A DNA stretch of 64,000 bases from Verrucomicrobiales bacterium (GCA_016793885.1 JAEUHE010000179.1:124001-188000); one strand, 5' to 3'; positions 31,310-42,188 are shown, numbered from the stretch's first letter. Notes: generated from the letters alone by a model not told the origin. Program-made: numbers and translations.

Positions 31310-34300
31310 TCAGCGGGAGGGTTCGGCCGAAGCCTCAACGAGTCGGGCGCGCCAGAACCCGTGCTGCCCCAGCGGCTGTTCCGCGAAGGTCCACCGCTCG
31401 CGATCGCCCAAGGTCTCGACCACTCGCCCGAGGAATAGAGCCGGGGGAGCCTCCTCCCAGTTCACCAAATCGGTGCTAGACTCCAGGATCACTCCCAGGC
31501 CGCCGTCGAGCGGCCGATCGACCACCAAACGGAACATGCCCGGTGAAGCGGTCTCCAGGGTCAGCAGCACTCCCGCGCTGTTAGGACCCGCGAGTGTGGC
31601 CGGGGCAGAGAGGATCGTCCACGGGACATCCGCACGCGTGGTGAACAGCCCATCCCAGAGTTGCAGCGAAACAATGTAGCTGCCCGCAGCGGTAGGCACA
31701 CCAACGATCCGTTTACCTACCGAGTCCGCGGTCAATCCCGGCGGTAAGCCCGACGCGCTGAGCACCACCGGCTGTTCATCCAGGTCCGCACAAGGGATGG
31801 CCAGCGCTACGCTCTGACCGACGGTGTGCTGCTGCGGCCCCGGGACCGTCAGCGTCGGCGCCCGATCCAAAATCATGCCCGGTTGGAACAGGGCCGTAGC
31901 CGGGATGATCTGCTTGGTGGTCCTAGCGCTGGACCAGCGCAACTCGCAACGGGCGTTGCCGCCGGCCTCATAGAATTCCAGGCGGATCGTGGCCGGAACG
32001 CCGGCGGTGAGGGCGATCGTGCCCCGATTCTCCACCGCCGAGGAATCCGTCCACCGATTGATGATCTGTTGGTTATTCACCCACAGCCGAACGCCGTCGT
32101 CGGCGGTCGTGTAGAAGGTATAGGTCTCCGTATACGCCGGCAGCACGGATCCCGTCCACCGAACCGAGAAGTTGTTAGCCGGAACGGCATTAGAAGGCGT
32201 CCCCGTTCCCCAGTTGAAGTTGACGGTCTGATCGACTCGTTCCATGAGCTGGGTGGTGAAGGTCTTGCCGCTGAAATAGCGTCCCCGCAAGCCCGTCGGA
32301 CTAGCACCGCCAATGATCTGACGCGTGGTCCGGGCGCTGGACCACCGAAGTTGGCAACTAGCGAACCCGGTCGCCTCGTAGTACTCCAGGCAGATCTTGA
32401 CTGGCGTGCCGGCGGTCAGCGCAACCGCGACGGTGTTCGTCGTGTTGCTGGAGGCAGTCCAGCGGTTGATGACTTGGCGGTCATTGACCCAGAGCCGAAC
32501 GCCGTCATCGGCGGAAACAGCGAAGGTATAGGTTTCCGTGTAAGCGGGAATCACCGAGCCAGTCCATCGAACCGAGAAGTCATCGGCCGGGACACCGGCA
32601 GCCGGAGAGGCAGTCAGCCAGTCGAAGTTGATCGCCGTATCCTTGCGTTCCACCACCGCACGCTCGAAGTTGCGGCCGGCGTAGTATTGCGCCCTGAATC
32701 CCGTACGGTTCGGCGCCGCATCATTGTCCTGGATGGTCACAACGGCGCTGCCATCCGTGATCCGTGCCCCCTGAGGAGTGGTGAGGGTCACCAGAATCGT
32801 TTTGCTGGATTCCACCCAGTTATCCTCCCAGAGCGGGATACGAATGGATTGGATCGTGGTAGCCGGCGGAAATACCAGCGTCCCCGTCACGAGAGCGAAA
32901 TCCTCGCCGACGATCGCCGTGCCCGCCGCCACGCTGTAATTGACTCGGGCCTCGAACGGAGAGGCTTGAGAGAGAGTCACCTGAACGCTGGCACCGCCCG
33001 CATCTTCACGCACCGCCAGATCGGCTACGGTCAGGTTAGGACAGACATCGCTCACCGCGAAACTACCCAGTGTAACGGTACCGGATCCATTGCTGTTCCG
33101 AACCTGGATCGAGTAACTGCCGGCAGCCAGTCCGGAGAACACGGGTGAGCTTTGCCACTGCGTTCCGTTTCGGCTGTACTCATACACTCCGCTTCCCCCG
33201 CTTACACTGACGGTCAGGGTGCCGATGCTCGATCCGCAGCTGGCCGGAGTTGTCGACGCTGTCCCAGTGATGGGTGCCAGCGTGCCGCCGTCGTCCAACT
33301 GACGAAGAAATGCGACCAGGTTGGCGAGATCGGTGGCGTTCAAGCTAACGCCGCTATGGGAAAGAATCGATTGTTCCAAGGTGAGAGCTGAACCGTCGTG
33401 AAGATAAGGAGCGGTGGCCCAGAGTCCGCGCAAGGTCGGGGTGTCGAATCCCGTGAGGACCGCACTCAACCGCTGACCACTGGTGCTCCGGATCGTTCCG
33501 ATGTTGTGGAAGACTCCGAGAGCACTATCGGTATACTGGCTGCCTGAATGACACTGCGCGCAGTTCAACTGTTGGAAGACGGCCTGTCCCGCCACAGCGG
33601 CGGCCGTGAGGCTGCCATCTGGGTTGCGATCCGGGCTGTCGCCGTTGCTGGTCAAGGAAGCCAGGTAAGACGCGAGGGCGTCCAAGTCCGCGCTTCGCCC
33701 GGCTTTGGGATCGCCCAGCGGCTGGGAACGCGTGCCGGAGTGGAAGTCCGCGTCGCTCATGAGCCCGGTGCCGCCTGCGAATGCGCGAATCTGCCCCTCG
33801 AAGTCCTGCACCTCGTCAAAGTTGCCGGTCCAATGCAGCGGCCCCTGCGACGTGCCGCCGTGTCCACGCAGCGTGATGGTGTTGCGCAGCCCCTCTCCGA
33901 ACTGGGTGAAATCCCAGACGCGCCCATCCTGGCCGCCGTCGTTGTGACAGGAGGCGCAGCTGACATACTGCTGGAACGCCAAGCGAGTGTCCCGCGCGTC
34001 GTAGAAGTGCTGCTTACCCAGCAGCACCGTCGGAGACAGCTTGTCGATTCCCACAGTATTCAAGGTGGCCAGCAAAGCGGGAGCCGCTTCGGAGCCGCCT
34101 TGCAGTGCGGTCAGATCAAACACGCTCACCGTTCGATCCATGAAGTTTTGCACAAAGAGGGTTCGACCATCCGGAGACACCGCCACGCCCTGCGGGGCCC
34201 GGCCGACGGAGAATCTAACGATCTCTCGCTTCGCCCAGGCATCAATCACTGCCACCTCACGACTGCCTTCCAAGGCGGTAAAGACGAAAAGGCCCTTGGG

Positions 34301-37300
34301 ATCCAAGACCGCCGCGCTGGCGATGCCTGCATTGTCGAAATCCACCCGACCCTCAATATCCTCGACCCCGCTCGCGAGCAGAATACGGGAGGCAATGCTC
34401 CGCACACTCATGTCGTGGGTCAAATCTCCGCCGTTTCGCAGTTGCCCCCGCTTGATGTTGTCCTGCTTCGAGGGCACCCAGGCTGAAAGGCCGTCCGGTG
34501 AAACCGCCACCGCTCCCAGATAGTTGGGAATCCCCTTGGCCGAGTTGGAAGTATCTGGAGCTTCGCTGTGCTCCAGCACTGTCTTGCCTGCCACGGTAAA
34601 TGCAGCGACGTTGACCAACAGGACTTCCCCGCCTTGTTTGACTCCCCCGACCGTCGTCTCGACCACCGCCGTGTCCTCGCCCGGCAGTCGGGGAGTGACG
34701 AAGCGGCTGACCAACAAACGTGTGCCGTCCGGCGACAAAGCCAGATGGCGAATGTCGACTCCCAAGGCCAGCGAACCAAGGACAGCGCCGGTCGTGGAAT
34801 TCAATTTCAAAAGATTGCCAGTCGCTTCCAACGCGACATAGACCGCCGTACCGCTAGGATCCGCCAGAATGCCAAATGGACGAGATCCTCGGGGCAGTGC
34901 GATGGTCTGGGCCACGGTGAAATCCGGGCGTAGCACCGTCACGCTCGCAGATCCCGCATTGGCCACCCACACCCTGCCGTCCGGACTCTGGCTCAGGGTC
35001 TTGGGCGATACCCCTACCCCGACCTCGGACAGTTTCGCGCGGCTCACGGCGTCAAATACGGAAACCGTGTCCTGATCCGGGTTCACCACCCACAGTCGAG
35101 GTGCCCCGGTACCGACCGTGGCGTACAGCACGCTGCTCGACTGGCTGGGTTTGCCGGTGGCGAGCGGCGCGTGGACGCCTTGACGATAGCTCGCGGTCAA
35201 CTCGCGGCCGGTATCGTCCTGCGCGGTAACCGTCACCAGAAATCGTCCGGGCGCAGCAAAGGTATGGGTGACGGCGGGAGAACTCGAAAAAGCCGTATCC
35301 GGTGTGCCATCCCCAAAACTCCAACGGAACCGCGGATTTCGTCCGCCAGATGCGGTAGCGGAAAGCCCGACGGCCGTCCCCGAAAGCACCGGACTGCCGC
35401 TCAGCGGCTGCAGGGAAAGAACATCGTTGATGACCCATTGAACCACGCTGGAGACAGCCGGCAGATTTCCGTCCGAGACCGTCACGGTCGAGGTAAAGCT
35501 GCCGGCCACCGTCGGCGAACCCGAGATCAAGCCGGAGGCGGGAGCGATGGAGAGCCCAGGAGGCAAGCCCGTGCTGCTCCAGGTCAGCAGATCCCCGTTG
35601 GCATCGGCGGCCTGCATCTGCAGATTCACGTTCAGGCCGAGGGCCCCCAATTGAGTTCCGACAGAGGTGATCACCGGTGCGGAGGGGAGAGAGAAGGCGT
35701 TGACGTGAACGCTCCAAGCCTCCACGTCCTGGTTGTTACCCAACCCTCCGGTTCCCGCTGTGAATCCAATCCAACCTTGGCTGCCGACCTCGGCGCTCAG
35801 GTCCAAGCTCACGGTCATCACTGGCGTGGTGGGTTTCGTAACCACCACCCCTTGAGCCGCGAAGACTCGGAGCTGATCTGCCGGGCCGTCGTAGTCTACC
35901 CACACGGTATGGCTGCCCTCGTTCTCCAGATCCCAGCCCGGGGTCCAGGTGGCGAGGTGGGTCTCCACGTTGCCGGAGCGCAGAACACCCAGATGGTTTC
36001 CATTCACATCGCCGACACCTTGGTAGTTGTCCATCTCGACTGCGAAACTTCGCGCCACCCCCGAGTATCCCAGGCCGCTGCCGGTTCCGCCCAGCGCGTT
36101 GGGACTATTGCCTTGAATGACAAACGTCATTCCGTCGGCGCCGTCGGCCGTTCCGTGAATTCGGAAAACCCAGCGGGTGCTGAAGGAGGTATCCGGTCCC
36201 AGCACAATCGGGTTGCTGAGGAAAGCCGATCCAGCCTGGTTCAGAGCATTCGGCGTCAGCCGAAGCGCGGCACCCGCGAGTGCCGCATTGCCGTTCAACG
36301 TCAGTCCCGCGGCACCGGTGAAGGTCGAATACGTCTGGCTATAGCTGGAGGGCTGCACAACCCAGGTGAGGGAGATGGTGTTGGTCGTCAAACCGTCGGT
36401 CAGGCTCACCTGCACCACGGCGGACCCCGCGGCCGTGGGGACTCCGGAGATCCGACCCGTCGTTGCATCCATCGTCAAGCCGGCGGGCAAGCCCGTGGCC
36501 GACCACTGAAAAACCGCTCCCGCCGGCCCAATGCCCGTCATCTGCAAGGAAACACTTTGGCCGATGTAGGAGGATTGATTTCCGGCCAGGGTGATCTGGA
36601 CGGAGGCTGTCGGGTCGACCAAAATCGTCTTAGAAACCGAGTGGACCCCGGCGGCGTTGAGACCGAAGAGCATCCAGTAACCGGGGGTCATCACATTCAG
36701 GTTCGCGCGAGCCGTCAACTCATAGGTCCCTGGTGAAACTTCAGTGAAGGGAAGCGTGAGATAGCGGAGATCGGTGTTGACCGAGTGGGTGATCGCCGAC
36801 ATCCGAATGAAGCTGAACTTGGTGAGTCCCGGAGTGCCCGTGACGGTAAAGCGCGTGCCCGCGCCAATGACCTGCGGGCTGGTCGAGAGCACCGGCCGCG
36901 CAGCCAAGGTTCCGTCGGGGTTGAACAGCGGGGCCGGAGTGTAGATCTGGGCGTCGCGGTGATCGGCCGCATTCCCGCTCAATCCACCCCCTCCTGAATA
37001 TACTCGACCGTCGGGGAGCAGGAGTGCCAACGAATGGTAGTTTCGCGGTACGGACATGTCGGCCACGGTGCGCCATTGCTTGGTCACCGGGTTCCAGATC
37101 TCCGGGGTCAAAATGGACCCGGTGTCGTTGAATTTGAGTCCTGACGTATTGCCGCCCATCACCATCACTTCCCCGTTGGGCAACACCACCCCGTTGGCAA
37201 ACTGACGGGCATAGGTCATGGAGGCGGTCGGAGTGACAACGGGAGTGGGCCCCGTCAAATCGACCGTGTAGGCCAATGGACTGCTGGTGCCCGTTGTTGT

Positions 37301-38221
37301 GTCGCTGGCGTTGTTGACGGTGTTGGCTCCGCCGCCTGCCACCACAATCTTGCCCTCGTCATACATCACCCACGAACCTTCCTTAGGATAGTGGGTGCCC
37401 GGAACCACGGTGCCGGCATTGGCCACTGAGCCGCTGCCATCCGGGCTTACCCAGTGCATGGTGTCAGTCGGTCCGAAATGGAACAGCCGACCGTCCGGCG
37501 CCAGGAGCAGAAATGGATGCCAAATGTTGATGTATCCGGGCTCGTTCAGAATCGGATTCCAGTTGATGCCCGTCAGGCGGCTGTAGCCGGAAAGCTCGTC
37601 CCAGCGCTCGGCCGTCCCCGATCCGCCGCTGCCACTGACCGTCCAAACCCGGCCATTCGGAAGCGCAACGCTGGTGTTGTACCAACGTGGATCGTTCATG
37701 TCCGGCGTTCGAGTCCAGGTGTTGGCGCGCCAGTCGAAAATGCTCGAGCGAACCGTCGTGGCCCGGCCACCATTGACCAGCACGCGGCCGTCGGGAAGCG
37801 TGACGAGCGCCCCGCAAAACATGTCGTGGGAGCCGTGGTTGTATTCCACGAATTGTCCGGTGGCCGGGTTCCAGGTGGCCGCATAGGTAAACTCCGGCCC
37901 GGAGGGAAATGTCGTTCTCTGGTTCGAGGCGAAGGTGAGCAATCGCCCGTCGGGAAGGACGGCGGCCGATACCGGAATGTGGGGGGTCCACGGAATTACC
38001 GCGCTCCAATCGCCGAGGGTGATCCGTTCGCCCGGCGTTGGAACAGCCGCCAGCATGGGCATGGCCGGAGGCAGCAACGCCGCCACCTCGGCTGCAAAGG
38101 TGTCCTCTTGAACATGCGGATCCACGTCGGCGAAAACGCTGCGCTGGGGGGTGAGAAGCAAGCTGAGGCCGACGGCGGCAGCCGTTGGCTTACGGAGGTC
38201 TCTGAGGCGTGGGTACAACAT
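31310..38221 (-). CDS. giant exported protein: radical copper oxidase + lectin-like + YVTN propeller + dihaem c + PA14 domains
   Basis: 2303 residues with a signal peptide (ends about residue 31). Residues 65-540 are a galactose/glyoxal-oxidase-type propeller plus C-terminal DUF1929. All five cofactor residues are present: Cys136 (HDMFCGA), Tyr181 (RWYNTS), Tyr395-His396 (RNYHSLALLLPDGRVYSGGG) and His479 (AITHSVNTD). Then come a putative-Ig domain (540-630), an L-type-lectin-like domain (632-850), a second putative-Ig (855-945), PKD (945-1040), a YVTN beta-propeller (1050-1400) and a MauG/CCP-like region with CASCH (1422-1426) and CAQCH (1554-1558). The C-terminal part has a Calx-beta (1750-1840), two PA14 domains (1844-1980, 1979-2115), a third Ig-like domain and a short tail. 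Radical copper oxidases turn alcohols or aldehydes into oxidised products plus H2O2. Fusion to a haem module suggests internal use of peroxide or electrons. Translation is coupled to the upstream gene (32-base overlap). Confidence 0.9.
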   Translation of the reverse strand: MLYPRLRDLRKPTAAAVGLSLLLTPQRSVFADVDPHVQEDTFAAEVAALLPPAMPMLAAVPTPGERITLGDWSAVIPWTPHIPVSAAVLPDGRLLTFASNQRTTFPSGPEFTYAATWNPATGQFVEYNHGSHDMFCGALVTLPDGRVLVNGGRATTVRSSIFDWRANTWTRTPDMNDPRWYNTSVALPNGRVWTVSGSGGSGTAERWDELSGYSRLTGINWNPILNEPGYINIWHPFLLLAPDGRLFHFGPTDTMHWVSPDGSGSVANAGTVVPGTHYPKEGSWVMYDEGKIVVAGGGANTVNNASDTTTGTSSPLAYTVDLTGPTPVVTPTASMTYARQFANGVVLPNGEVMVMGGNTSGLKFNDTGSILTPEIWNPVTKQWRTVADMSVPRNYHSLALLLPDGRVYSGGGGLSGNAADHRDAQIYTPAPLFNPDGTLAARPVLSTSPQVIGAGTRFTVTGTPGLTKFSFIRMSAITHSVNTDLRYLTLPFTEVSPGTYELTARANLNVMTPGYWMLFGLNAAGVHSVSKTILVDPTASVQITLAGNQSSYIGQSVSLQMTGIGPAGAVFQWSATGLPAGLTMDATTGRISGVPTAAGSAVVQVSLTDGLTTNTISLTWVVQPSSYSQTYSTFTGAAGLTLNGNAALAGAALRLTPNALNQAGSAFLSNPIVLGPDTSFSTRWVFRIHGTADGADGMTFVIQGNSPNALGGTGSGLGYSGVARSFAVEMDNYQGVGDVNGNHLGVLRSGNVETHLATWTPGWDLENEGSHTVWVDYDGPADQLRVFAAQGVVVTKPTTPVMTVSLDLSAEVGSQGWIGFTAGTGGLGNNQDVEAWSVHVNAFSLPSAPVITSVGTQLGALGLNVNLQMQAADANGDLLTWSSTGLPPGLSIAPASGLISGSPTVAGSFTSTVTVSDGNLPAVSSVVQWVINDVLSLQPLSGSPVLSGTAVGLSATASGGRNPRFRWSFGDGTPDTAFSSSPAVTHTFAAPGRFLVTVTAQDDTGRELTASYRQGVHAPLATGKPSQSSSVLYATVGTGAPRLWVVNPDQDTVSVFDAVSRAKLSEVGVGVSPKTLSQSPDGRVWVANAGSASVTVLRPDFTVAQTIALPRGSRPFGILADPSGTAVYVALEATGNLLKLNSTTGAVLGSLALGVDIRHLALSPDGTRLLVSRFVTPRLPGEDTAVVETTVGGVKQGGEVLLVNVAAFTVAGKTVLEHSEAPDTSNSAKGIPNYLGAVAVSPDGLSAWVPSKQDNIKRGQLRNGGDLTHDMSVRSIASRILLASGVEDIEGRVDFDNAGIASAAVLDPKGLFVFTALEGSREVAVIDAWAKREIVRFSVGRAPQGVAVSPDGRTLFVQNFMDRTVSVFDLTALQGGSEAAPALLATLNTVGIDKLSPTVLLGKQHFYDARDTRLAFQQYVSCASCHNDGGQDGRVWDFTQFGEGLRNTITLRGHGGTSQGPLHWTGNFDEVQDFEGQIRAFAGGTGLMSDADFHSGTRSQPLGDPKAGRSADLDALASYLASLTSNGDSPDRNPDGSLTAAAVAGQAVFQQLNCAQCHSGSQYTDSALGVFHNIGTIRSTSGQRLSAVLTGFDTPTLRGLWATAPYLHDGSALTLEQSILSHSGVSLNATDLANLVAFLRQLDDGGTLAPITGTASTTPASCGSSIGTLTVSVSGGSGVYEYSRNGTQWQSSPVFSGLAAGSYSIQVRNSNGSGTVTLGSFAVSDVCPNLTVADLAVREDAGGASVQVTLSQASPFEARVNYSVAAGTAIVGEDFALVTGTLVFPPATTIQSIRIPLWEDNWVESSKTILVTLTTPQGARITDGSAVVTIQDNDAAPNRTGFRAQYYAGRNFERAVVERKDTAINFDWLTASPAAGVPADDFSVRWTGSVIPAYTETYTFAVSADDGVRLWVNDRQVINRWTASSNTTNTVAVALTAGTPVKICLEYYEATGFASCQLRWSSARTTRQIIGGASPTGLRGRYFSGKTFTTQLMERVDQTVNFNWGTGTPSNAVPANNFSVRWTGSVLPAYTETYTFYTTADDGVRLWVNNQQIINRWTDSSAVENRGTIALTAGVPATIRLEFYEAGGNARCELRWSSARTTKQIIPATALFQPGMILDRAPTLTVPGPQQHTVGQSVALAIPCADLDEQPVVLSASGLPPGLTADSVGKRIVGVPTAAGSYIVSLQLWDGLFTTRADVPWTILSAPATLAGPNSAGVLLTLETASPGMFRLVVDRPLDGGLGVILESSTDLVNWEEAPPALFLGRVVETLGDRERWTFAEQPLGQHGFWRARLVEASAEPSR

Positions 38222-40067
38222 AGGGTTTGGGTTGTTCTGATTCTCTGATTAAAAGGGGAGCGCTCGCGGTCGAAGCCGCGGCGGAAGTCTCGGCCACGAC
38301 GGGTGCGGTCAGGGTCTCGTCGCTTAAGGTGCGGAGAAAGGCAACCAGAGCAGCGCGGTCATCCGCGCTGAGACCCAGACCTGACTGTGGATGCTTGGCT
38401 AAGTTCGGATCCAAGGTTCGGGTACGAGCCATCGGACCGTTGTAGTGGTCGATCACTTCTTCCAGCGTGGCGAAACGGCCATCGTGCATGTAAGGGGCGG
38501 TCAGGCCAACGTTCCTGAGGCTGGGCACCTTGAACTTGTTTCGGTCCGAAGCCTGCCTTGTGATTTCGAATCGGCCCAGGTCCTCGTCTCGCTCCGGCAA
38601 CCCGTTGTTCATGAAGTCGTGGTTGGTGAACAAATTGCCGCCGTGGCAGTGAAAGCAATCTGCCCCGCGCAGGCCGCGAGCCGGATCGTGTTCGGTTGTG
38701 AACAGTTCCAGGCCTCGGCGTTCCTGAGCGGAAAGCGTTTCGAGTTTTCGGGCGGCGCGATCGAACTTGGAGTCCTGGGACACCAGGGTGAGCAGGAATT
38801 GCTCAAGGGCGCGGGCGAGTCGGCTGGCATCCAATACCCCGGGACCGAAAGCCCGCGCTGACAGGGCCCCATACTCCGGGTCATCCTTGAGCTTGCCCAC
38901 GACGCGATCCAAGGTCTCGTTCATTTCGTGTCGATCCTGGATCGGCATCAACACCTGTTCCCGGAGACTCCCAGCTCTTCCGTCCCAAAAAAACCCCTTG
39001 GCCCAAGCCAGGTTGACGAGCGACATCGCGTTCCTTCGGCCGGGCTGCCCCTCCGCTCCCACGCTCGTGGCTCGCGATTCCGCAAATCCGCGCGTCTGGA
39101 TATGGCAGCTGGAGCAGGACTGTTGATTGTTGCGCGAAAGTCGAGCATCATGGAACAGACGACGGCCGAAGGCCACGCCTTCCACGCTGAGTGGGTTATC
39201 GGCCGGCAGTTTGAAGCGCGGCAGCCGCTGGGAAACATGGAGCGGAAACGAAGTGGCTGTGGAGATCGCGTTGGAGGACGTCCCCACCACGGGGGCCACG
39301 GCCTGAAACAGATCGTCGTGAACCGACCTCACGACAAAAGACTTACTGACCCGGGATGCCAGAAGTCGGGCGGTTGGATCCCCAGCGCGTGAGTGTGTGG
39401 AGGGAACGCTGCGCGCGATCTCGCCGAACTCCAGGACCGCAGCGATATCCCAGCCCAGCCGAACCGTCGCCGAAGAATTGGGGTTCAGCTTCACCGGCAG
39501 CTCGACCCACATCGGCTCCGTCCCTCCGGCCAGGTGATAGGAGAACCCGGAGTTCTCGCCCTTGGGTCCGTGGAAGTGGCCCTCGACCGCACAGAAGACA
39601 TAGCCCCCCTGCCAGCCCCAGTGCAGTCCGCAAACGTCCGGATGCAAGGGATGATCCGCCGGCCGGAGGTTGGGATCGCTCTCATCGACGCGCTTCGGCA
39701 AGCCCACCTGAAAGCGCACGGTCCGAAAACCCACTCCGGATGGCAATCCATCAGCTTTCGCGGTCCATTTTTGCTTGCCCGCGCTCAGCTGCACAAACCA
39801 GTCCTGCGATTCAAGCCACGTCCCATCCTCCCGCTGCAGGGCCAATCCCGACAGCAGCGCGTCGACACGACTGACGGAAAAACCGGCCAGGTTCGCCAGT
39901 CCGATCGGACGGTTCAGCACCAGCGGAACGCCGTTCCACTCCGGCTGAATTTCAAGCTGTAGCTGCCGCGGCGCGGCCCCCGCGGTGCCCAGAGCAATCA
40001 GCCAAGCCAGCGCAGCCGGAAGCATTCGACGGTCACCGACGCGTCGAACCAACCGGCTCATCACCAT
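38190..40067 (-). CDS. fused MbnP-like copper-binding / MbnH-like dihaem (MauG/CCP family) protein
   Basis: 625 residues from the ATG at 40067; the open frame has 19 further upstream codons. The signal peptide ends near GTAGAAP. Residues about 35-215 match the MbnP (CorA-like) domain, with HPDVCGLHWGWQGGYVFCAVEGHF and the W-x-W pair at 150/152. In characterised MbnP/CorA proteins a Trp is oxidised to kynurenine and helps bind Cu(I). Residues about 280-605 are a dihaem protein: CSSCH (318-322), CFHCH (471-475), MSLVNLAWAKGFFWDGRAGSLREQ and KVPSLRNVGLTAPYMHDGRFATLEEVI. MbnH is the MauG-like partner that makes the kynurenine. Here substrate and enzyme appear as one chain. Its end overlaps the start of the giant oxidase by 32 bases. 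Family calls are strong; the joint role is inferred. Confidence 0.88.
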   Translation of the reverse strand: MVMSRLVRRVGDRRMLPAALAWLIALGTAGAAPRQLQLEIQPEWNGVPLVLNRPIGLANLAGFSVSRVDALLSGLALQREDGTWLESQDWFVQLSAGKQKWTAKADGLPSGVGFRTVRFQVGLPKRVDESDPNLRPADHPLHPDVCGLHWGWQGGYVFCAVEGHFHGPKGENSGFSYHLAGGTEPMWVELPVKLNPNSSATVRLGWDIAAVLEFGEIARSVPSTHSRAGDPTARLLASRVSKSFVVRSVHDDLFQAVAPVVGTSSNAISTATSFPLHVSQRLPRFKLPADNPLSVEGVAFGRRLFHDARLSRNNQQSCSSCHIQTRGFAESRATSVGAEGQPGRRNAMSLVNLAWAKGFFWDGRAGSLREQVLMPIQDRHEMNETLDRVVGKLKDDPEYGALSARAFGPGVLDASRLARALEQFLLTLVSQDSKFDRAARKLETLSAQERRGLELFTTEHDPARGLRGADCFHCHGGNLFTNHDFMNNGLPERDEDLGRFEITRQASDRNKFKVPSLRNVGLTAPYMHDGRFATLEEVIDHYNGPMARTRTLDPNLAKHPQSGLGLSADDRAALVAFLRTLSDETLTAPVVAETSAAASTASAPLLIRESEQPKPYVVPTPQRPP

Positions 40068-40772: not shown

Positions 40773-42188
40773 TCACGGTGCCGGCCTCGTTTCAGCAGTG
40801 GACTTCGCGGATCTCCCGGCTTCCCCTAGACAATACAGGAATTGTTCGCCCCGCAGGAACAGCTGATTCCCGACCAAGGCGGCCGAGGCTGAAAAGATGT
40901 CATCCAATCGATTCACCGCGATGATCTTGGGCGTCTCTCCGGTTTGGACCACGACGGTGATCCCCTCCCTCGACGTCACGTAGATCCGTCCGGAGGCGGA
41001 GACTGGGGAGGAGAAAATATCACGCAGATTCGCTAAACGGAACGGCTCGAAGCGTGGTTTTCCTGTTTTAGGATCGAGCCCGGAGAGGATGTTCTGATTG
41101 TGCCGGAGAAAGTAGAGTGTATCTGACTCGAACAACAACGACGGAACGTAAGGGGTGAGGCGGTTCAACCGCCAAGCGACGTGGTCGGTGTCGGTGATGT
41201 CTCCTTTGGCACCTTCCACGCGGATCGCCAGCAACGCCTGCCAATCGTAGCTATTCGCCGCAAACACCATCCCGTTCGCAGCGATGGGAGAGGAAACGAC
41301 GTTGCGCGACAGTCCGCCGCATTCCCAAATAAGGCGGCCGGTCTCGAGATCATACCCACGGATGCGTTTCGTGGCGCTGACTACCACCTGCGTGCCAACC
41401 GAGGTCTCGACGGTAATCGGGGTCGACCACGATGTCTTTTCGTCACGGGCCGTTTTCCAAACCTCCTGCCCCGTCTCCGCGTCCAGCGCCGCGAGGAAGG
41501 AATCTCCTTCATGATCCCAATTCAGCAGGAGGCGTTTCCCGTGCAGCACCACCGAGCTACCTTCGCCATGAGCATGGAGCGTCTGCATCCGACCGTAGTC
41601 ACGGCGCCACTTGAGCGTCCCATCGCGTCCGTAACTCACCACGCCGCGCGATCCAAAGGATGCGTAGATTCGTTGCCCATCGGTCACCGGGGAGGAGGAG
41701 GCGAGACTGCCTGTGACATGTCCCCCCTCGTGAGGAAACTCTTCTTTGATCGTTCGCTGCCAGACAATCGCCCCGGTGTTGCGGTCGAGAGCGATCAGGA
41801 GGAATCGGTGTTTCTGGCCGACGCCTACGTTGTCGTGGGTACCCGGAGCGTTGTCATAGACCAAATCGACAGGCTCACCGAAAGGCTCGGCCGAGGTGAC
41901 ATAGATGCGATCATCCCATACCACCGGACTGGAATGGCCCTTCCCGGGCAAGGCGCGTTTCCACACCACATGGTTCGTTTCGCTCCACTCCGTGGGCGGA
42001 TTGGCGTTCGGAGCCGTCCCGTTGGCGAATGGCCCGCGCCACTGTCCCCACTGACCTGTTGCCGGCGTCGAAGCGGCCCCGGAGATCAGTGGCGCGTGGA
42101 TCAGTGCGGCCAGGACAGTGACGACGAGCGCGCGTCTCACTCGAGTTCGTGCGTTCATCCGCTTCGCAGTGGGCAGGAGAGTGCTCAT
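40773..42188 (-). CDS. exported PQQ-like (BamB-type) beta-propeller protein
   Basis: 471 residues. The ATG at 42188 overlaps the ferredoxin stop (ATGA). A signal peptide follows a basic start ([21 protein letters not shown]). The rest is an eight-bladed propeller of the PQQ-repeat type: [86 protein letters not shown] and [15 protein letters not shown]. Quinoprotein catalytic residues of alcohol dehydrogenases are not obvious, so a scaffold or non-enzymatic role like BamB or the planctomycete 'PQQ-binding-like' proteins is more likely. It is the last gene of a four-gene operon. Confidence 0.88.

Follow-up and report, generated by a model that had tools for sequence, protein, structure and literature searches.

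Two overlapping genes for copper and haem proteins

In a 64,000-nucleotide stretch of a Verrucomicrobiales genome (GCA_016793885.1, JAEUHE010000179.1:124001-188000; hereafter the window), we analyzed two adjacent genes on the minus strand, gene 1 and gene 2, which we read, with a probability of about 0.6, as a conserved operon whose two genes serve an extracellular copper-haem oxidase. A first-pass annotation of the window had called two frames here, with gene 2 starting in the last 32 bases of gene 1. Reading of the frames confirms that both are open and that gene 2 begins within the 3′ end of gene 1, and in relatives the spacing ranges from an ATGA overlap up to about 24 bases.

38190-40067, minus strand: gene 1, MbnP-MbnH fusion, predicted secreted, 625 amino acids (open frame, Pfam and NCBIfam profiles, fold match)
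31310-38221, minus strand: gene 2, predicted secreted, radical-copper-oxidase-like/propeller/dihaem protein, 2303 amino acids (open frame, profiles)
38190-38221, minus strand: 32 bases shared by the 3′ end of gene 1 and the start of gene 2, suggestive of translational coupling (sequence)

Gene 1 encodes a divergent MbnP-MbnH fusion

MbnH is a MauG-like enzyme that converts a tryptophan of MbnP to kynurenine, and MbnP binds copper. In gene 1, a signal-peptide-like start, an MbnP domain and an MbnH/MauG-like dihaem domain follow one another in a single chain.

39972-40067, minus strand: predicted signal peptide, residues 1-32, ending GTAGAA-P (by eye)
39417-39968, minus strand: MbnP domain, residues 34-217 (Pfam PF20243; fold match 7l6g, Z 16.6)
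39618-39620, minus strand: W150, candidate kynurenine residue (invariant in 55 fusions)
39534-39536, minus strand: H178, candidate copper ligand (invariant in 55 fusions)
39393-39395, minus strand: H225, candidate copper ligand (invariant in 55 fusions)
38307-39206, minus strand: MbnH/MauG-like dihaem domain, residues 288-587 (profile matches)
39102-39116, minus strand: haem c site CSSCH, residues 318-322 (sequence, alignment of fusions)
38643-38657, minus strand: haem c site CFHCH, residues 471-475 (sequence, alignment of fusions)

The Pfam MbnP profile scored 75.9 bits on residues 34-217, above its gathering cut-off of 27, and CCP_MauG (PF03150) scored 175.6 bits on residues 296-441; the dihaem region carries both its two CxxCH sites and the CCP_MauG domain. 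The NCBIfam equivalogs for MbnP (TIGR04052, 29.3 bits, cut-off 140) and MbnH (TIGR04039, 236 bits, cut-off 363) stayed below threshold, and gene 1 is therefore a divergent member of both families. The best match of the N-terminal half of the structure model is the solved MbnP 7l6g (Z 16.6 over 212 residues), the next, unrelated fold reaching Z 6; by sequence profile alone the match to 7l6g is weak (E 0.079), with W150 aligned to its WxW motif. Model residues 280-590 match MauG, MbnH (6e1c) and cytochrome c peroxidase (CCP)/dihaem peroxidase structures, with low model confidence in this dihaem part. The WxW motif and the conserved histidines are found in gene 1, whereas the four-cysteine motif of the 7l6g title is not, the MbnP domain having only C146 and C159, which are unconserved in relatives.

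The first-pass annotation had described an MbnP-like HWGWQGGYVF (residues 149-158) and a CSSCH/CFHCH dihaem domain in one chain, and Pfam, motifs and fold match agree with it. It had also named both W150 and W152 as kynurenine candidates; W150 stands, while W152 varies among the 55 aligned fusions and drops out, leaving W150 as the universal candidate on sequence grounds. From the families, we infer a kynurenine at this position. Self-maturation of gene 1 would agree with published work on MbnP and MbnH and with its residues being intact.

Gene 2 combines a galactose-oxidase-type domain with a propeller and a dihaem module

The order of domains in gene 2 is galactose oxidase, immunoglobulin-like, L-type lectin, PKD, YVTN beta-propeller, dihaem module, Calx-beta and two PA14.

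36617-38014, minus strand: galactose-oxidase-type domain, residues 70-535 (profiles, structure-sequence alignment)
37814-37816, minus strand: Cys136, equivalent of the cross-linked Cys (alignment)
37679-37681, minus strand: Tyr181, equivalent of the cross-linked Tyr (alignment)
37034-37039, minus strand: Tyr395-His396, predicted copper ligands (alignment)
36785-36787, minus strand: His479, predicted copper ligand (alignment)
35699-36334, minus strand: L-type (legume) lectin domain, residues 630-841 (Pfam)
35201-35398, minus strand: PKD domain, residues 942-1007 (Pfam)
34082-35116, minus strand: YVTN-type beta-propeller, residues about 1036-1380 (NCBIfam, structure model)
33290-34027, minus strand: dihaem (CCP/MauG-like) module, residues 1399-1644 (profiles)
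33944-33958, minus strand: haem c site CASCH, residue 1422 (sequence)
33548-33562, minus strand: haem c site CAQCH, residue 1554 (sequence)
32720-33025, minus strand: Calx-beta domain (Pfam)
31883-32704, minus strand: two PA14 domains, residues 1840-1969 and 1974-2113 (profiles)

Residues 70-535 align with the galactose oxidases 9g8h (E 3e-93) and 1gof (E 9e-72), and Cys136, Tyr181, Tyr395, His396 and His479 all fall on galactose-oxidase ligand positions, giving the five residues of an AA5-like site. The Cys, two Tyr and two His reported by the first-pass annotation are present as it had stated, and the separate dihaem module that it ascribed to gene 2 is borne out by the CASCH and CAQCH sites. 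The GlxA equivalog NF052501 (146 bits, cut-off 800) and the hydrazine synthase beta-gamma profile NF052342 (76 bits, cut-off 1250) stayed below threshold on gene 2. The model of the propeller and dihaem parts has a predicted local distance difference test score (pLDDT) of 64, its dihaem region being too poor for judging Trp-haem distances. Among relatives of gene 2, oxidase, PKD, propeller and dihaem form a constant core, with both dihaem sites in every copy readable there, while the glycan-binding modules vary (legume lectin, CBM6/35, PA14 or H-type lectin).

The two genes recur together across Verrucomicrobiota

We searched for the pair in 293 genomes of Verrucomicrobiales, in 387 evenly sampled Verrucomicrobiota genomes and, more widely, in 84,980 species genomes. 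Galactose-oxidase genes of the window's type are rare, with close copies in 6 other genomes of the order sample, copies in 8 other genomes of the phylum sample and 16 loci in the species-wide scan. All seven other genomes of the phylum sample with a complete gene of this type have the adjacent pair. In total, 19 distinct loci have an MbnP-MbnH gene directly upstream of gene 2 on the same strand, the two either overlapping or lying no more than a few dozen bases apart; this count includes one locus where only the MbnH end is visible at a contig edge (G100/L127) and one where the reading frame differs between the MbnP part and the MbnH part (G066/L137). Their hosts are soil Verrucomicrobia, Verrucomicrobiaceae, including a Prosthecobacter metagenome-assembled genome (MAG), Opitutaceae and others, and so belong to several Verrucomicrobiota families. 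Chance juxtaposition, which we considered, is ruled out by the recurring adjacency in the phylum sample and the species-wide scan.

Wherever readable, all five ligand residues, Cys included, are kept in 19/19 paired copies. The MbnP-MbnH proteins of the paired loci form one clade (100/100 support), apart from fusions with a different partner described below, and the distances for gene 1 correlate with those for gene 2 (r 0.50, Mantel p 0.006). Across all the neighbourhoods compared, the shared content is limited to these two genes, with no third gene in common, and none of the order's other galactose-oxidase genes with flanks read adjoins an MbnP-MbnH gene.

Upstream of the operon, window positions 40773-42188 hold an open reading frame (ORF) for what looks like a PQQ/BamB-like repeat protein, a homologue of which lies upstream of the pair in L141, hinting at a loosely common neighbourhood. 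At another locus, a 2368-residue protein is encoded immediately before the MbnP-MbnH gene (L133:353-7456, plus strand), and an extra MbnP-like frame (327 amino acids, G297:C22:673705-674445) lies further upstream on the same strand.

Most MbnP-MbnH fusions of the order have a YHYH-domain partner

The fusion itself, which we had considered as the novelty, was rejected as such, about 70 full-length MbnP-MbnH fusions being present in the 293 genomes of the order. Most of them directly follow a gene whose product, of about 600 amino acids, is a secreted protein with a YHYH domain (PF14240), as in L039:2082-3917 (plus strand) and about 30 further loci (e.g., L041, L047, L048, L066, L119-L122 and L124). 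This YHYH protein is a candidate second client of MbnP-MbnH. The first-pass annotation had asked whether such fusions neighbour galactose-oxidase genes: the 19 loci do, and most fusions instead stand beside YHYH. No locus with both a YHYH and an oxidase partner was found among those compared, and no YHYH gene was found in the window's genome or in the other checked genomes with the oxidase partner. The overlapping or nearly touching genes, the dedicated clade and the lack of any locus with both partners speak for a specific partnership.

Orthologues without the cross-linking cysteine come from genomes that gave no MbnP-MbnH match

Three gene 2 orthologues (L139, L140 and L173, with DLFAAH in place of DMFCG) carry Ala for Cys136 and keep Tyr181. 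They come from Leucothrix and Cocleimonas (Gammaproteobacteria, Thiotrichaceae; G293 and G294) and from one Verrucomicrobiota genome (G582), and a search of these three genomes found no MbnP-MbnH. The two complete copies retain Tyr395, His396, His479 and both haem sites, the G582 copy (L173) ending before these positions, and the propeller is also kept where readable. The Cys-less proteins group as one clade (100/99) that is sister to the paired ones, and a Fisher test on the Cys and MbnP-MbnH counts gives p 0.002 with kinship ignored. The 19 loci, the monophyletic partner clade and this loss of Cys without MbnP-MbnH support the functional link between the genes that the first-pass annotation had proposed on the basis of this one locus; it had named the absence of a conserved neighbourhood as the outcome that would speak against it, and the 19 loci keep the adjacency. 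We consider a functional link very likely.

A proposed maturation pathway and its alternatives

We propose that gene 1 is exported and that its MbnH-like domain would oxidatively convert Trp150 in the MbnP domain of gene 1 into kynurenine, in cis or in trans, completing an MbnP copper site for which His178 and His225 are the candidate ligands. The charged protein would then give copper to, and/or one-electron oxidize, the galactose-oxidase domain of gene 2, which would build a Cys136-Tyr181 radical cofactor. Docked on glycans through its lectin, PA14 or CBM modules, gene 2 would oxidize an alcohol or sugar (glycan), yielding hydrogen peroxide (H2O2), and the fused dihaem module would either use up this H2O2 or employ it to hold the copper centre in the active radical form. 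That both proteins are secreted is a prediction. We infer the copper transfer from gene 1 to gene 2 and the nature of the substrate (a glycan, sugar or alcohol). It is probable that gene 1 loads copper into, or activates, gene 2, and a role of the built-in dihaem module in peroxide use or activation is plausible. More tentatively, MbnP-MbnH may be a client-specific system for copper and radical maturation, a fused, self-maturing haem-copper chaperone that loads and activates a peroxidase-bearing radical copper oxidase, a YHYH protein taking the client's place in related bacteria.

Several observations weigh against this reading. The stacking Trp of galactose oxidase (W290) is absent from gene 2, a gap or Gly standing at the aligned place; alternatives to this second-sphere residue exist within the radical copper oxidase family. 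The model of gene 1 (pLDDT 61) is too poor in its dihaem region for placing Trp150 near a haem. As the Cys-less proteins form a single sister clade, they count as one evolutionary contrast rather than three. The Cys is kept by unrelated galactose-oxidase genes of genomes that gave no MbnP-MbnH match (e.g., G014, G037 and G177), and the Cys-Tyr cofactor therefore does not generally need a partner of the gene 1 type. Within the clade itself, L134 (a MAG labelled Akkermansia, G295) keeps the Cys in a genome that gave no MbnP match. The window's own genome has a second galactose-oxidase/lectin/PKD/propeller/dihaem gene on contig C4 (L106:4389-9590, minus strand), shorter than gene 2 and without an adjacent MbnP-MbnH, whose oxidase domain is 72% identical to that of gene 2 with its Cys intact. 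One further copy outside the pairing, G003/L109, is ended by a contig edge. Finally, the fusion stands beside a YHYH gene more often than beside a copper oxidase, and the gene 1 type is therefore not specific to copper oxidases.

These points bear on the alternatives. Gene 1 could serve general copper acquisition, its adjacency reflecting co-regulation in copper scarcity rather than direct maturation of gene 2. The many genomes with a YHYH partner, the single MbnP-MbnH gene beside two gene 2 paralogues in the window's genome and the copper uptake proposed for CorA-type relatives all fit this explanation, yet it accounts poorly for genes that overlap or nearly touch, for an MbnP-MbnH clade dedicated to gene 2, for the absence of loci with both partners and for the lack of MbnP-MbnH beside the order's other galactose-oxidase genes, and we regard it as unlikely. 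It is also somewhat unlikely that the MbnH part of gene 1 acts as a MauG-like oxidant directly on gene 2, in radical activation or Cys-Tyr formation, with MbnP docking or sensing rather than donating copper: MauG and CorPerox do act on partner proteins from outside, and loss of MbnP-MbnH is accompanied by that of Cys136 alone, with the copper ligands unchanged at the readable positions, but the invariant Trp150, His178 and His225 suggest an MbnP copper site in use, and gene 2 already contains a dihaem module.

Alternatively, the propeller and dihaem module might be the main catalyst of gene 2, the galactose-oxidase domain serving for binding, with redox activity in some cases only. The haem sites and propeller retained by the Cys-less orthologues, and the resemblance of propeller plus dihaem to hydrazine synthase beta-gamma, point this way; against them, all five ligand residues persist, where readable, in all 19 paired copies of several families, making this quite improbable. 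The maturation of gene 2 by gene 1 remains our preferred reading.

Comparison with known systems

Each part of the operon is of a known kind, and we are aware of no earlier account of the pairing, nor of any galactose oxidase fused to a dihaem module. The literature that we searched, which did not cover the primary MbnP/MbnH papers, contained no description of either, no paper combining MbnP and YHYH, none joining galactose oxidase, Verrucomicrobia and cytochrome c peroxidase, and only incidental papers on MauG, galactose oxidase and copper. A conserved, translationally coupled cuproenzyme offers MbnP-MbnH a concrete candidate client outside methanobactin producers.

Gene 1 resembles MbnP-MbnH of Methylosinus trichosporium (7l6g, 6e1c) in its MbnP fold, its WxW motif and a dihaem domain with both haem sites and a PYMHDG motif; unlike that system, it is one polypeptide, falls below the NCBI equivalog cut-offs, has no conserved cysteines of the four-Cys type among its relatives and is paired with an oxidase gene. 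The 64-kb window shows no methanobactin operon, the rest of the genome not having been searched for one. The methanotroph proteins CorA/CorB and MopE/SACCP likewise have a kynurenine copper protein, with a copper site of two His and kynurenine, beside a co-transcribed MauG-like dihaem gene (PMC3912023), but as two separate genes, with copper uptake as the role proposed for the CorA type and no oxidase partner. The galactose-oxidase-type domain of gene 2 shares the fold and the five ligand residues of galactose oxidase (1gof, 9g8h), and differs in the missing stacking Trp and in its fusion to propeller, dihaem and glycan-binding modules.

Two systems are closest in the logic of activation. Maturation of the radical copper oxidase GlxA of Streptomyces requires a copper chaperone, Sco, and a haem peroxidase, DtpA (PMC4736821); these belong to the Sco and DyP families rather than MbnP and MbnH, GlxA has no haem, and sco and dtpA are not adjacent to glxA in Streptomyces lividans. 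In fungi, the copper radical oxidase AlcOx is activated by a tandem haem peroxidase via one-electron oxidation (PMC9770985), but the peroxidase is of class II, the genes are head-to-head without a copper-binding partner, and only gene 2 has a dihaem c module fused into the oxidase. If our reading is right, the operon would be a bacterial, covalently fused counterpart of these oxidase-peroxidase partnerships and a second, unrelated solution for the copper loading of radical copper oxidases; by analogy, it would unite the Streptomyces, fungal and methanotroph ideas in two polypeptides.

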